64,000 nt of DNA. It comes from a cyanobacterium endosymbiont of Epithemia clementina EcSB (GTDB taxonomy: Bacteria; Cyanobacteriota; Cyanobacteriia; Cyanobacteriales; Microcystaceae). The stretch's first letter is position 1, and each line of letters starts with the position of its first letter. The notes beneath the pieces are model-generated. The model was given only the letters and a program-made list of their open reading frames with translations. It was not told the origin of the DNA and did no database searches. Shown here in pieces: positions 1-63,396 of the stretch. The translations under genes were made by a program, and so were the position numbers. The DNA lies in NCBI RefSeq assembly GCF_029919255.1, contig NZ_CP123991.1:427110-491109 (forward strand), written 5' to 3'.

Positions 1-55
1 CTTTGTTATTGATGCGTCTTGCTTTTGGTAGTGGTATTTGTAGATTTGGGATGTT

Positions 56-104
56 CTGCGCAGTTAAAGTTAATTCTTGTCCCGAATTAACTTTAACTGC
101 GCAG
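56..104. repeat. Perfect inverted repeat, 21-bp arms, 7-nt loop
   Basis: Arms at 56-76 and 84-104 are exact reverse complements; the loop is TTGTCCC. No U-tract follows on either strand, so it is not a textbook intrinsic terminator, although it could end a gene located before the window. Confidence 0.9.
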
Positions 105-282
105 AGGAAATAGTTCAAACTGAAGGAACTAATTGTCATCAATAAAAAGTAAAAGTTAATTGTAAGTAGGTAGGCTAAAGTACTGCTAGGTTTATGGTTA
201 AATAGAAGTACGCATTGATAATTTACGTTAAATACGGTCTGCCTGGAATAGATAAAGTAATCATAATAATAATCGGATAAAC

Positions 283-4296: not shown

Positions 4297-4345
4297 ATTT
4301 TTTATTCTAAAAGTTTTTATTTTAAAAACTTTTAGAATAAAAAAT
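4297..4345. repeat. Perfect inverted repeat, 23-bp arms, 3-nt loop
   Basis: Arms 4297-4319 and 4323-4345 pair without mismatch; the stem is almost wholly A/T. It lies 11 bp from a second, unrelated perfect palindrome in the middle of a gene desert. Confidence 0.9.
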
Positions 4346-4356
4346 ATTTTGAGATC

Positions 4357-4404
4357 AATATGTAAAACAACTTATTTTTTTATAAATAAGTTGTTTTACA
4401 TATT
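4357..4404. repeat. Perfect inverted repeat, 21-bp arms, 6-nt loop
   Basis: Arms 4357-4377 and 4384-4404 are exact reverse complements. The sequence is unrelated to the neighbouring palindrome at 4297-4345. Confidence 0.9.
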
Positions 4405-4760: not shown

Positions 4761-4801
4761 TTTACGTATACTTGTCTTAAATTAAGACAAGTATACGTAA
4801 A
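4761..4801. repeat. Perfect palindrome, 20-bp arms, 1-nt centre
   Basis: Arms 4761-4780 and 4782-4801 flank a single A. With no loop, the structure would extrude as a cruciform rather than form a stable RNA tetraloop. Confidence 0.9.
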
Positions 4802-11507: not shown

Positions 11508-12631
11508 CTGTAGTACTGCTTGAACTAACTATAAATCTGGGAATAATAGCTCTGTTTGCTTGGCATAATAGTTTGTCCCTGGCTACACACCAATTAGTTG
11601 GTCCAACGTGAATTTGACAGAAATTAACGGAGAAATTACGGAGCAATAACTCTATCCTAGAGAATAAAATTTATTGGGCTTTTATATTTTGGATATAACA
11701 TTTCGTCTTGATACTTGCCTGGGTATTGTTTGACCTGGATCGCTTCTATCAAAAAGCAATGAATTATTTGCTTTCAAGTTAACTCTAAACGATATAGATA
11801 ACTATAAATTTATGCTTTAATTTAAACAAAAGTTAATTGGCAAATTTCTTGGAGACTGAGGATATATTGCTCCAGAGCTCTCTATGATAGCTCTATCAAC
11901 AAATACTTTAAATAATTAAATAAAGCGAAAGTTAGTTAAACTGATTGATGAAATTTTACTTCACAAGTATTTTTTAACTGGAATAATTAACGATTAACTC
12001 AAAAATATATCTCAGATTTAATTTTAGAGAAATTGAAGTATTTGGACCTATTTTATAAACTCTTTTGCTTAACTTACAGCTTCATACCCAATTATCATAT
12101 TTACCTTCTCTCTATCAATAGTTACAAGGTAAATATGCCTTCACACGTTGCTATTTTAATACGACTATTGTGATCTTAATTATTGACAGTTACTATTCTA
12201 AATAATCGTTAAACTTGTCGTGTTTTGATTTTAGATATTGAAAATAACAACTGTGTTTTTAAATCTCGTCCAACTCAATGTGAGTTAGACTGTCTCGTAC
12301 CTCAAAATGCTTTGAACTCTCTGAATAATATTCAGAGAGTTCAAAGCATTTTAGAAAAATTTTATTAAGTAGAGTCGAGTTTAAACTTTGGATATTGAAT
12401 TTGTTCTAGGATCTAGATTTAGAATCTTTACTGGTTGTTACACTCTTTATTTTCAGTCAACTGTCGATAGTAAACTAATGGCTGACTAATGATGACGGAT
12501 AATTATATAAAGAATATCTTTTTCGAATCAGTGAAGTACAACACATTAAGTTCAAAATTTATGACCCATCAGGGTTGAACTTATTTACTTCTGACAACAA
12601 TTTTTTATTTTTGCTATCTAGGGGGTAGACT
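11508..12631. other. 1.1-kb region with one long palindrome
   Basis: No convincing gene or named relic. The only structure is the 24-bp-arm palindrome at 12304-12352. The last 100 bp presumably carries the argH promoter; GGGGG at 12621-12625 may act as the argH ribosome-binding site. Confidence 0.5.
12304..12352. repeat. Perfect palindrome, 24-bp arms, 1-nt centre
   Basis: Arms 12304-12327 and 12329-12352 are exact reverse complements around a single A. It lies 280 bp upstream of argH and 800 bp after the previous plus-strand gene, so it does not sit at an existing gene end. Confidence 0.92.
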
Positions 12632-22837: not shown

Positions 22838-24110
22838 ATGAACATCCTTGATTTCGAGGCTGTTTCTCTAGCTAACTTCATTGAATCCGACAAAATAACA
22901 GCTAGAAATACCATCACTTAAGTTCTAAAAATATTGAGTAACACAATCTCAATTTAAATTATTTTACGATAGGCTTTATTAAGCAATCTTTGTCTGAGAT
23001 GAAACATATCAGTTCTCAAATTTATTGGGGATAAAATCCAGGAATGTTAGCGGGAGTTGCTTATGTTTTTAACAAATAATTTGATTTTACTGAAGTTCCT
23101 AACCTTAGCTGGTTCAAAGATTAATGTAAAAAATATATCAGCAACTAAAGACCCAATCACTATTACTAACTTTTTCAAAGTTAGTAATAGTGATTGGGTC
23201 TTTGAACATCGATGAATATACTTATGGTTTTGTTATCAAAAACAGCCATTATAAAGCTAGTATTAACTCTCATAATTTAACCTATATTGCTAAGAAATCT
23301 ATAGATAGATTAGCCCATCCGTTGCCGTTGAATCAGTTTTTATCAGTCTAGGCTCATATACTAATGGAGCAGTTAAATTTCTGCGGCTTTATGTGAGGTT
23401 TCGCTGTAAAAATAAACTTGTGAACGATTATTAGGAGCAAAAACAATTTGAAGTTTTTGCTGATTCTGTCTAAAACATTACAGTTGTATTCGATAGTTTA
23501 CAAGGAAAGATTAAGAGATATACAGTTTATCCTAATCCTATACTAGAGTTCTGTCAATAAATATCAAGAATAGGAATTGGCGAATTTAAAATTGCTATCT
23601 CAGAGAGCTTTTTCAAAAAAATAAATTAGAAGTCTTTTTAGTTGTCAAATAAATTACTAATGTTTCAGATTTTTTTAAAAATATCTACTTTTTTAAATTT
23701 GAGAGAGCCAAAGCAACTGCTAGTTTCTTATTTCTTTGGAAGGGTCTAACCTAGATTTGGATAAATTGCGATCTTGTACTCAATATTTCAACCCCGCTGC
23801 GTGTATTCATTATTGTAGCACGGGCGTTTATTTCAACTTTTTAGTCTTGATATTAAGTGTTTTTAAGGATGTTGAGGTGATTATTACACCTACAACCCCT
23901 TGTGTAGCCTCGCTATTAAGACAAGAAACAATGATAATTCATTTCTTATAAATTATCATTAGCTCCAATTTTAGAGCGATTTACTCAACCCCTATTTTTT
24001 ATTAGATTACCTGTATTATTATTTTTAGTTTCATGGACTAATCAATTACTTTTGAGGGGTCAATTGATTGCTGCACCCTATTAAAGCTCTTCCATAAAAT
24101 GGATTGCTTA
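22838..24110 (+). pseudogene. AtzE-like amidase pseudogene
   Basis: Relic of an amidase-signature family hydrolase. In order on the plus strand: an ATG and N-terminus (22838), LAGVAYVFNK and VPNLAGSKINVKN (matching the LAGVPFAVKN / TLAGSKIN region with the catalytic-lysine loop, about 23047-23130), NIDEYTYGF (about 23210), SLGSYTNGAVK (the DTNGSIR serine region), DVEVIITPTTPCVASLL (about 23873-23920) and GQLIAAPY (about 24060). Multiple stops, frameshifts and a lost active-site serine region make it nonfunctional. A perfect palindrome (23147-23203) sits inside it. The true tRNA amidotransferase gatA is a separate intact gene at 36365-37813. Confidence 0.8.
23147..23203. repeat. Perfect inverted repeat, 27-bp arms, 3-nt loop, inside the amidase pseudogene
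   Basis: Arms 23147-23173 and 23177-23203 are exact reverse complements; the loop is TTC. The left arm still reads as the ancestral coding sequence (SATKDPITITNFF, matching the family's PATQDATxxTxL). The right arm replaces the codons for the conserved KAGAVLVGAL and shortens them by about 5 nt, after which homology resumes at NIDEYTYGF. Confidence 0.93.
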
Positions 24111-24367
24111 ATCTCTGCAATAGAAATTAATGCAAATAGAATACATTTAAGATTAGTAAATCTTAGAGCTATTAACTATAATTTAATCTGATATTTATCC
24201 AGCAAAGAAATCAGTAAATAAATACAAATATAAGCAATGTTAAAAAGATAAAATCTTGTCATTGTAAGCAATAAAAAATAATCAAAGTATTTTTGTTACA
24301 AGGTTGATTGAGAATCAAATAAATGGGGAAATAAAATATTTTAATCATCCCCTGCATTTTTAGATAA

Positions 24368-35555: not shown

Positions 35556-36364
35556 TTATTGTAGATAATTTACCCATACCAATCCTTCTTGTAAAGAGAA
35601 AACTCAAAACAAAAACTAAAACTGAATTGTTATTGACGTTTTAAAGGTCTTGTAATTAGGGTAATTTTAGTTTCTGACAGTTAACTAGCCATTAACAATA
35701 ATGTTAATGGCTAGTTAAGCTATGTTAAGATCTAGCAAGCTTTTGTTATCCTAAGTTCGGTAGAGCTAGAATGATTGCTGTTGTCTATTCTTTCCTCTTT
35801 ACCGTGTTTTTAGTTTTGTCTGCGTTTAAAATTTTGTAAATACTACAGTATTTTATCAATTTCGATTGACTTATGATTCACAAAAAAAACGCTATCAGTT
35901 TTGATATATTCCCCATAGTCAACCATAAAAATAAAGAATTCTAGACTTTGCAATGTTGTGCGAAACCAAGGTCATAACTAATGTTTTCAGCATTACTATG
36001 TACATAGTATAAAATGCGATAACTGTTTAAATTAGTAGATATCCACAATCGATAGATGTGTTACTTTTCAATATTTATAATCAGTATATTTAACCCAAAA
36101 TACTAATAATCTAATCCTAGTTTTCGAGAAGTATAATTCACCTAACAGTAGAGAACAAAAATTGATTGCTCTTCTCAAATTACCAACCTTAAATAAGTAG
36201 CAAGATAGGCGATATTTATTTTGACTGGTTCCAGTCCACTGACTATCTATCTTTAAAGATAATTAATAATTCTGTCTCAAAAGTCTCCTATAAATAATTA
36301 ATTTATAATTAATAGTTCTTATTGAAGATGTATATTTTATCAGCTATAAAAGACTGATTATTTA
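35556..36364. other. Intergenic, one hairpin
   Basis: Apart from the hairpin at 35681-35718, no gene, RNA or repeat is recognisable in this AT-rich 0.8-kb stretch. Confidence 0.55.
35681..35718 (+). terminator. Hairpin after the porin gene, 17-bp perfect arms
   Basis: Arms 35681-35697 and 35702-35718 with loop ATAA, 126 bp after the porin stop. A plausible terminator by position, but there is no U-tract after it; the stem is far longer than needed. Confidence 0.55.
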
Positions 36365-42205: not shown

Positions 42206-42384
42206 TATAGGGTAAATAAAAGCGATATTATGAATAATAAAGCGGTTTTTTTCAGAAAACTTGAAAAGTTATAATTGTTAGTTTTTGGTGTTAAACATTA
42301 ATATTAGTTATTAATTAAAATTCGGATAGCCCCTTTTAATAGCTGATAATTATCCAATGCAGATATTGTTTGGGTAAGCAATTT

Positions 42385-42451
42385 ATATTTCTATATTTAG
42401 AGTTAAAGATTAGCAAAATTTACTAATCTTTAACTCTAAATATAGAAATAT
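42385..42451. repeat. Perfect inverted repeat, 29-bp arms, 9-nt loop
   Basis: Arms 42385-42413 and 42423-42451 are exact reverse complements, the longest stem in the window. It lies between two minus-strand relics, 97 bp past the end of 42548-42722. Confidence 0.93.
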
Positions 42452-42547
42452 TAGTTTTATGTCTTATATATAAGACTTGTATATGTACTTGTTTTTTCTG
42501 ATTTACTAATAACTAAGCCAACAGCTTTAAAAGCTTTTAAATAAAAT

Positions 42548-46744: not shown

Positions 46745-46781
46745 AATTCCTGTTAATAAACAGGGTTTATTAACAGGAATT
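46745..46781. repeat. Perfect inverted repeat, 17-bp arms, 3-nt loop
   Basis: Arms 46745-46761 and 46765-46781; loop AGG. About 490 bp after ftsY, too far to be its natural terminator. Confidence 0.85.
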
Positions 46782-46891: not shown

Positions 46892-46930
46892 TTTTGTAGT
46901 TTAAAATAAACTTTATTTTAAACTACAAAA
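46892..46930. repeat. Perfect palindrome, 19-bp arms, 1-nt centre
   Basis: Arms 46892-46910 and 46912-46930 around a single C. It lies just beyond the 3' end of the relic at 46950-47058 and may mark that lost gene's end. Confidence 0.88.
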
Positions 46931-62227: not shown

Positions 62228-62654
62228 GGTTTTAATATTAAGAACTAGGTCACTAGAGAATTATTAAAGAACAAACTGAAGAGTATCAGCAACTCCTTCC
62301 CATAAAAGTTAACACAAATACTTTCAGATCAGATAATTCAGGGTCTTGGACTAAACTTTCTCAAGAAAAATCAAGCACTCACTTACAAGTTTACTATTAT
62401 CAATTCTTCGTGATCAAGATAGCGCTACATTTTATAGCAGGTAAGCTTAAATAAGCCTACTACTAAAAAATAGTTAAAGAATAATAGTTGCTAGATACTA
62501 ACTTAGCCTAAAAATTAGTTAAAAAAATTTAAAAATCAAGAACTTTGAGAGTTAACTGGCGATAAACAAATACTCCCAAACGAGGACAAGAACCCAAGTT
62601 TTATATGTAAATGTAAAAAACAAAGCCAAAATAATTGCAGAATAGGTAAGATAT

Positions 62655-62699
62655 TTGAATAATCCAATCATAAATTATCTTTATGATTGGATTATTCAA
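62655..62699. repeat. Perfect inverted repeat, 20-bp arms, 5-nt loop
   Basis: Arms 62655-62674 and 62680-62699; loop TTATC. About 430 bp upstream of kaiA, not at a gene end. Confidence 0.9.
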
Positions 62700-63021
62700 G
62701 TAAAGGAAAGAAAAGATCAAATCTATTGAATAGCCTTTATAAAAGGATGAACGTACTTTCTAATAACCAAGAATCATCTTTCTTCTTTTTTTTAAAAAAA
62801 AGTTCAATAAACTCTTAGAATCATTCGTTATTTTTTAAAATTTAGGATCGAATAAAACTTGAAAAATAAAAATAAATCTTCAGTATTTAGTTTTTTAAAA
62901 TGAATATAATTGTAGAGAATAGTTGATTTTTTTAAAATAAGTACTACGATAGCGATCAAAATATTTTGTGTTTAACTCTAATTTTTTTTAAAAAAAAGAA
63001 ATAAAAAAATACTTGAGCAAA

Positions 63022-63065
63022 AAATATTATATTATTTTATGTAGAGAGAAAATAATATAATATTT
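63022..63065. repeat. Perfect inverted repeat, 17-bp arms, 10-nt loop
   Basis: Arms 63022-63038 and 63049-63065, entirely A/T. Confidence 0.85.
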
Positions 63066-63361: not shown

Positions 63362-63396
63362 AGCTATGAAGTCTTGCTTTGCAAGACTTCATAGCT
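63362..63396. repeat. Perfect inverted repeat, 16-bp arms, 3-nt loop
   Basis: Arms 63362-63377 and 63381-63396 with loop TTT and a comparatively GC-rich stem. Followed by TGGTTT, not a U-tract. 170 bp before the next start codon. Confidence 0.88.

Follow-up and report, generated by a model that had tools for sequence, protein, structure and literature searches.

The window analysed here, a stretch of 64,000 nucleotides, lies in the genome of the cyanobacterial endosymbiont of Epithemia clementina (G000; 3.07 Mb, single contig) and carries the remains of an AtzE-type amidase gene, recognised as three TIGR02715 pieces at G000:C1:450296-451232, two of which contain stops. The syntenic counterparts are an intact gene in the relative G001 (G001:C5:66780-68117) and pseudogene pieces in the sister genome G005 (G005:C1:438962-440103), which was taken as the cyanobacterial endosymbiont of Rhopalodia gibberula (NZ_AP018341.1). 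Deletions of 35, 26 and 30 nt with respect to G001 are common to the window pseudogene and to G005, which places the death of the gene before the split of the two lineages. G002 and G003, which we take to be the symbionts of Epithemia turgida and E. pelagica respectively, returned no match over the pseudogene when searched with a 3.7-kb stretch of the window, and a plasmid search using the pseudogene as query returned nothing.

Inside the dead gene, positions 23147-23203 form a perfect inverted repeat whose two 27-bp arms are exact reverse complements (27 of 27 pairs) separated by the loop TTC, thus confirming the palindrome reported in a preliminary description of this DNA. The left arm reads ATKDPITITNF, and homology to the family restarts at NIDEYTYGF, as had been described, in a different reading frame. 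Composition predicts about 6e-10 repeats of this kind per 64 kb, and no repeat with arms of at least 16 bp occurred in three order-1 Markov copies of the 400-kb G000 sample that contains the window. Folding of the segment as single-stranded DNA returned -27.2 kcal/mol (z -13.4), for a 27-bp stem with 30% G+C. Rfam and tRNA scans across the window gave no matches. Table 1 collects the features of the locus and the other palindromes of the window.

Table 1. The AtzE-type pseudogene, its palindrome and further palindromes in the window (positions in the window; decimal values are identities).
Feature	Position	Strand	Remarks
AtzE-type amidase pseudogene with palindrome	22838..24140 (approximate limits, from alignment)	+	TIGR02715 pieces; syntenic intact gene in G001, pseudogene in G005
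Left arm (template), mostly ancestral	23147..23173	+	ungapped against G005 (0.85, flanks 0.84) and G001 (21/27)
3-nt loop TTC	23174..23176	.	
Right arm, derived, exact reverse complement of left arm	23177..23203	+	occupies the site of the relatives' AGA-I/V-L-I/V-G-A; identity to G005 0.70 (two gaps); 2 nt shorter than in both G005 and G001
22-bp palindrome, same kind, right arm derived	55..105	.	left arm 0.95, right arm 0.68 to G005 (item 27)
23-bp perfect palindrome	4297..4345	.	only a loose anchor, in G005 (item 28)
21-bp perfect palindrome	4357..4404	.	no anchor in sisters (item 29)
20-bp perfect palindrome	4761..4801	.	no anchor (item 30)
24-bp palindrome	12304..12352	.	left arm 0.58, right arm 0.79 to G005 (item 31)
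16-bp perfect palindrome, no loop	14429..14460	.	loose anchor (item 32)
17-bp perfect palindrome	35681..35718	.	no anchor (item 35)
38-bp, 92% palindrome with 29-bp perfect stretch; longest listed in the window	42380..42456	.	no flank anchor in sister samples (item 36)
17-bp perfect palindrome	46745..46781	.	loose G005 anchor (item 37)
19-bp perfect palindrome	46892..46930	.	loose G005 anchor (item 38)
23-bp, 96% palindrome with 20-bp perfect stretch	62652..62702	.	no anchor (item 39)
17-bp perfect palindrome	63022..63065	.	no anchor (item 40)
16-bp perfect palindrome	63362..63396	.	no anchor (item 41)

The preliminary description had attributed the palindrome to a template switch, a reading that would fail if relatives carried the same palindrome in an intact gene or if the left arm did not align with the family. 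Comparison with the relatives gave the opposite result on both points. The flanks align, in synteny, to G005 and G001 on both sides, and the palindrome is missing from the G005 pseudogene and from the intact G001 gene, as well as from all 15 intact AtzE loci (the G001 gene, L006, being one of them), whose best perfect repeat in the homologous segment ranges from 0 to 6 bp. All 15 loci encode at this stretch L-x-x-AG(A/G)-I/V-L-I/V-G-A/S/T-L/T-NMDEYAYGF. The left arm has retained the family sequence with ordinary divergence, since its identity to G005 is at the level of the flanks and its alignment to G001 is likewise free of gaps. The right arm requires two 1-nt gaps to reach its lower identity to G005. 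It had been described as a copy of the left arm written over the original codons; it is indeed the exact reverse complement, and the identity of 0.70 that it keeps to G005 means that it is not wholly foreign. Measured between common anchors, the segment is 31 nt long in the window and 33 in both G005 and G001, a frame-shifting loss of 2 nt and not of about 5 as first estimated.

A pairwise reading of the two arms showed that 19 of the 27 pairs are complementary already in the G005 segment, with two bulges, compared with 27 of 27 in the window. With respect to G005, the change is confined to the right side in five pairs and to the left side in one, affects both sides in two, and is compensated in one. 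Numbering from the outside, the outermost pair changed in the right arm is the first when G005 is the reference and the third when G001 is, which places the outer switch-back point at the arm edge within 2 bp; the initial proposal that both switch points lie at the arm edges is thus borne out for the outer one. At left-arm pairs 7 and 11 the derived base corresponds to the right-hand state found in G001, and a right-to-left correction may have taken place here earlier. In its best DNA fold, the G005 segment forms an imperfect hairpin around the axis of the palindrome, composed of 12 inner pairs with two bulges and 5 outer pairs; this fold is not significant on its own (z of -1.09, 29 of 200 shuffles folding equally well), and the G001 segment folds otherwise, without a same-axis hairpin. 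As the sister sequence can fold imperfectly on the same axis, correction of a quasipalindrome is likelier than copying over unrelated codons.

These data very probably identify 23147-23203 as a scar left by template switching, probably at an imperfect hairpin that was already in place. The absence from relatives, the left-arm homology, the segment length and the repetition of the pattern at other sites are observations; the polymerase steps and the acting strand are inferred. As a strand was synthesised across the pseudogene, its growing 3' end would pair back by way of the inner imperfect stem, either to the arm just made or to the sister strand, would copy that arm outwards and, close to the outer edge, would go back to the template that it had left. 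In this way the right arm would be turned into the perfect complement of the left one with a net loss of 2 nt. Template switching as originally suggested is supported, and its intra-strand form is indistinguishable at this locus from an inter-strand one.

The event was recent: the G005 lineage lacks it, and the gene that it struck had been dead since before the split. It is not what killed the AtzE-type gene. The absence of mismatches in 54 sites returned a mean age of about 0.019 substitutions per site, equivalent to roughly 13% of the period that has passed since the lineages parted (95% bound near 40%), on the assumption of neutral, clock-like decay and of 0.14 per lineage. As the host gene was already dead, there is no need to invoke selection.

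The focal event is one of many, mostly located in non-coding and pseudogene DNA, which makes up nearly half of these reduced genomes. Among 76 G000 palindromes with arms of at least 14 bp, both flanks were anchored in G005 for 50, in G002 for 36 and in G003 for 8, and 26 could be tightly aligned to G005 and/or G002, the remaining 50 falling outside the arm comparison. A sister palindrome of at least 14 bp was present in 4 of these 26 (items 1, 50, 55 and 59), the other 22 reaching at most 9 bp; in a wider set with arms of at least 9 bp, conservation in G005 with the same loop length was found for 8 of 98 anchored G000 repeats, and for 1 of 22 at arms of at least 16 bp. The arm test was carried out on 23 palindromes, including item 59, which was compared with G002 though palindromic in G005. 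The length change did not exceed 2 nt in 14 of them, and the derived arm appeared to be the right one in 7 and the left one in 4, and was undecided in 12. Divergence was concentrated in one arm beyond chance with moderate significance (sum 60 vs 44.8, sd 7.4, p 0.03, n=23). The sister segments (n=35) folded better than 400 random non-coding windows (mean z -1.63 vs -0.26, p 4e-5), several of the strongest-folding ones being partly conserved palindromes.

Two further footprints point in the same direction. Among the 6 conserved repeats with a loop of at least 3 nt, 2 have the loop exactly inverted between G000 and G005 (arms 20/19 and 9/10); at L046 (G000:C1:304508 / G005:C1:299693) the two genomes have in common a 20-bp palindrome whose 6-nt loop is exactly inverted. 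An intact ORF of 476 aa (L063 10165-11595, G000:C1 near 650802), presumably DUF4912-like, has four adjacent residues rewritten from ELAR to DHSQ without change in length. The motif reads CDELAREWY in G005 and G001, CDELTREWY in G003, CDESVREWY in G006, CEEFAFEWY in G004 and CDDHSQEWY in G000, and the altered codons sit in an arm complementing the conserved stretch for VSDRD. The G002 counterpart is in pieces, with stops.

The palindrome load was then evaluated as the number of perfect repeats with arms of at least 16 bp and loops of at most 12 in a 400-kb sample per genome. The reduced genomes (2.5-3.1 Mb) gave 61 (G000), 31 (G005), 45 (G002) and 50 (G003), the larger relatives G001 and G006 gave 1 and 3, and Markov copies none. 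Per 100 kb of non-coding DNA these values correspond to 32.4, 16.4, 23.0 and 31.7 for G000, G005, G002 and G003 vs 1.2 and 2.6 for G001 and G006. In 79 loci of other cyanobacteria the density at 16 bp was 5.0 per 100 kb non-coding, so that the excess of the four reduced genomes over cyanobacteria at large is approximately three- to sixfold. At arms of at least 20 bp, 3 repeats were found in the 1.4 Mb of the 79 background loci, compared with 30 (G000), 13 (G005), 22 (G002) and 26 (G003) per 400 kb. One Oscillatoria princeps contig (L234) held 5 of the 20 background repeats of at least 16 bp in the 79 loci. Palindrome density is uneven, as L175, which covers 21.6 kb of the R. gibberula symbiont, has no repeat of 14 bp or more. 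G013 and G021, which are UCYN-A-sized and which we take to be UCYN-A, showed 3 repeats of at least 20 bp in a small sample of 60 kb.

Repeats with 20-bp arms and 0, 1, 2 and 3 mismatches numbered 30, 13, 18 and 16 in G000, 13, 7, 13 and 16 in G005, 22, 14, 17 and 26 in G002, and 26, 21, 16 and 28 in G003. Constant birth followed by neutral decay predicts such a flat series, from which G000 departs by an excess at 0. On the constant-birth model, and counting all arms of at least 20 bp as non-coding, one such arm would be born per approximately 150-350 non-coding substitutions.

Other origins of the focal palindrome were considered in the light of these data. Independent point mutations might have made the arms complementary by chance, and the 19 pairs already matching in G005, with two gaps, reduce the number of changes required. 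Nevertheless, eight pairs and two bulges would all have been fixed and none broken, and likewise at dozens of sites, while two larger relatives contain 1 and 3 such repeats against 31-61, making this origin very improbable. Equally hard to sustain is an RNA hairpin, such as a transcription terminator, built or kept by selection. The hairpin is strong and a minority of the palindromes lie close to gene ends, but the focal one stands within a pseudogene, and neither G005 nor G001 has it. Moreover, of the 61 palindromes of the G000 sample with arms of at least 16 bp, 8 adjoin a T-run and 7 follow an ORF end at no more than 100 bp, the mean arm GC (0.234) is lower than that of non-coding DNA (0.290), and the counts with 1, 2 and 3 mismatches are roughly level, as expected from birth and neutral decay. 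An intrinsic terminator has a G+C-rich stem followed by a T-run 3' of a gene; the focal stem is low in G+C and lies in a pseudogene.

Insertion of a mobile palindromic element of the MITE or REP type is still less credible. Bacteria do have such elements, and G149, an order-level relative, contains a recurring 28-bp core at four sampled places; the focal segment, however, is 2 nt shorter than in the relatives, so that nothing was inserted. The 76 G000 palindromes include a single similar pair, and 8 of the 76, the focal one not among them, have a similar stretch elsewhere in the 400-kb sample to which this copy search was applied, the whole genome having been searched only with the 3.7-kb window stretch. 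The focal palindrome was accordingly rejected as a MITE or REP-type element, with no second copy in the 400-kb sample and no gain in length. Finally, amplification can generate inverted chimeras, but a fold-back artefact of sequencing or assembly is barely conceivable here, as synteny with G005 continues on both flanks, the excess is present in four genome assemblies and some palindromes recur at the same sister position with compensating changes (items 50, 55 and 59).

The genes that might underlie the load were also examined. RNase HII was scored by PF01351, TIGR00729 being a poor model for the bacterial enzyme (above cut-off in 4 of 14 controls). PF01351 was absent from G000, G002, G003 and G005 and present in the larger G001, G004 and G006, of which G001 and G006, not G004, are covered by the palindrome samples; it was also absent from the UCYN-A-sized G013 and G021. 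In genomes without RNase HII of this size class, palindromes of 39, 23 and 21 bp were noted at L171:16822, L174:13368 and L170:7900. Of 386 genomes taken from the phylum, 377 have the enzyme, and further genomes lacking it, outside the palindrome samples, are G029, G179, G358 and the less complete G067 and G084. SbcD, RecJ, PolA and RNase HI each occur in 7 of 7 genomes of the genus. As xseA is found in G001 alone (1 of 7), it does not separate the large from the small genomes.

Elhai 2026, in the portion of the article used here, reports RNase HII as absent from all endosymbionts studied and RNase HI as retained (PMC12903740). In yeast, the relevant section of PMC3820800 describes an increase in quasipalindrome mutations upon loss of RNase H2, only under high transcription and with a requirement for RNase H1. 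The lack of RNase HII in the symbionts fits the yeast data. The RNase HII losses seen are few independent events. RNase HII loss as sole cause is weakened by G149, which lacks the gene and shows no clear burst. In 120 kb, of which 27.5 kb is non-coding, it has 3 repeats of at least 16 bp, giving 10.9 per 100 kb non-coding; two of the three are copies of one recurring element, and without them the single remaining repeat is under the background of 5.0 per 100 kb. Its congener G034, which has RNase HII, gave 0 repeats in 20 kb, a sample too small to compare. The 28-bp palindromic core of G149 was seen at L263:9232, L264:15370, L265:2425 and L266:1762, and looks like a repeat element and not like separate births. 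The load may equally well stem from relaxed constraint in pseudogene DNA rich in A+T. We therefore put forward only tentatively, and regard as rather unlikely, a standing template-switch mutator phenotype due to RNase HII loss in the diatom spheroid-body symbionts, perhaps also in the nitroplast lineage, which would write long palindromes (about one arm of at least 20 bp per 150-350 non-coding point substitutions) and occasionally rewrite several adjacent residues of living proteins.

The focal scar is a clean natural case, of known polarity, of a mutation templated by a hairpin with 27-bp arms. Given the load of such scars in the four related reduced genomes, the birth of palindromes can be counted as a class of mutation during genome reduction, and a specific mutation signature can be connected, in a testable way, with the loss of a repair enzyme. 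The finding is also a warning for annotators that such hairpins should not be taken for terminators or regulatory RNAs. The template-switch mechanism is known, and the richness of endosymbionts in inverted repeats is already in print in the survey PMC10434271, the part of which considered here assigns to endosymbionts 28 of the 200 most repeat-rich genomes and 1% of the 200 poorest. Our literature searches found no description of the lineage-wide palindrome load in these symbionts, and the word 'palindrom' does not occur in the main text of the symbiont genome papers PMC12903740 and PMC5638926.

With that survey our data have in common the high inverted-repeat frequency in endosymbionts; as far as the consulted part of the survey goes, it differs in counting repeats per kb with neither orthologue comparison nor mechanism. 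The closest likeness is to the quasipalindrome template switch of the Ripley model, which the sections used of PMC7202029 and PMC3820800 present for E. coli and yeast reporters: an imperfect repeat is perfected, the other arm templates the changes and synthesis returns to the original template. Unlike those reporters, the present case concerns 27-bp arms in the natural sequence of a reduced genome and is known from sequence comparison. Genes of Saccharomyces cerevisiae changed by template switching, in the excerpted account of PMC8604942, similarly show arm homogenisation, exact loop inversions and replacement of several adjacent coding residues, whereas the symbiont events fall mostly in decaying non-coding DNA and the excess of long arms is lineage-wide. 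As in the template-switch origin of RNA hairpins (PMC8794818, in part), a single event can yield a perfect hairpin; in contrast with those cases, no RNA function is indicated for 23147-23203. Finally, the mitochondria of Nematomorpha, as outlined in the extract used of PMC6649704, likewise belong to a lineage strikingly rich in perfect inverted repeats, in which arm conversion is suspected, but their palindromes reach 284 bp and lie in coding genes, and for them a template-switch origin is merely proposed.
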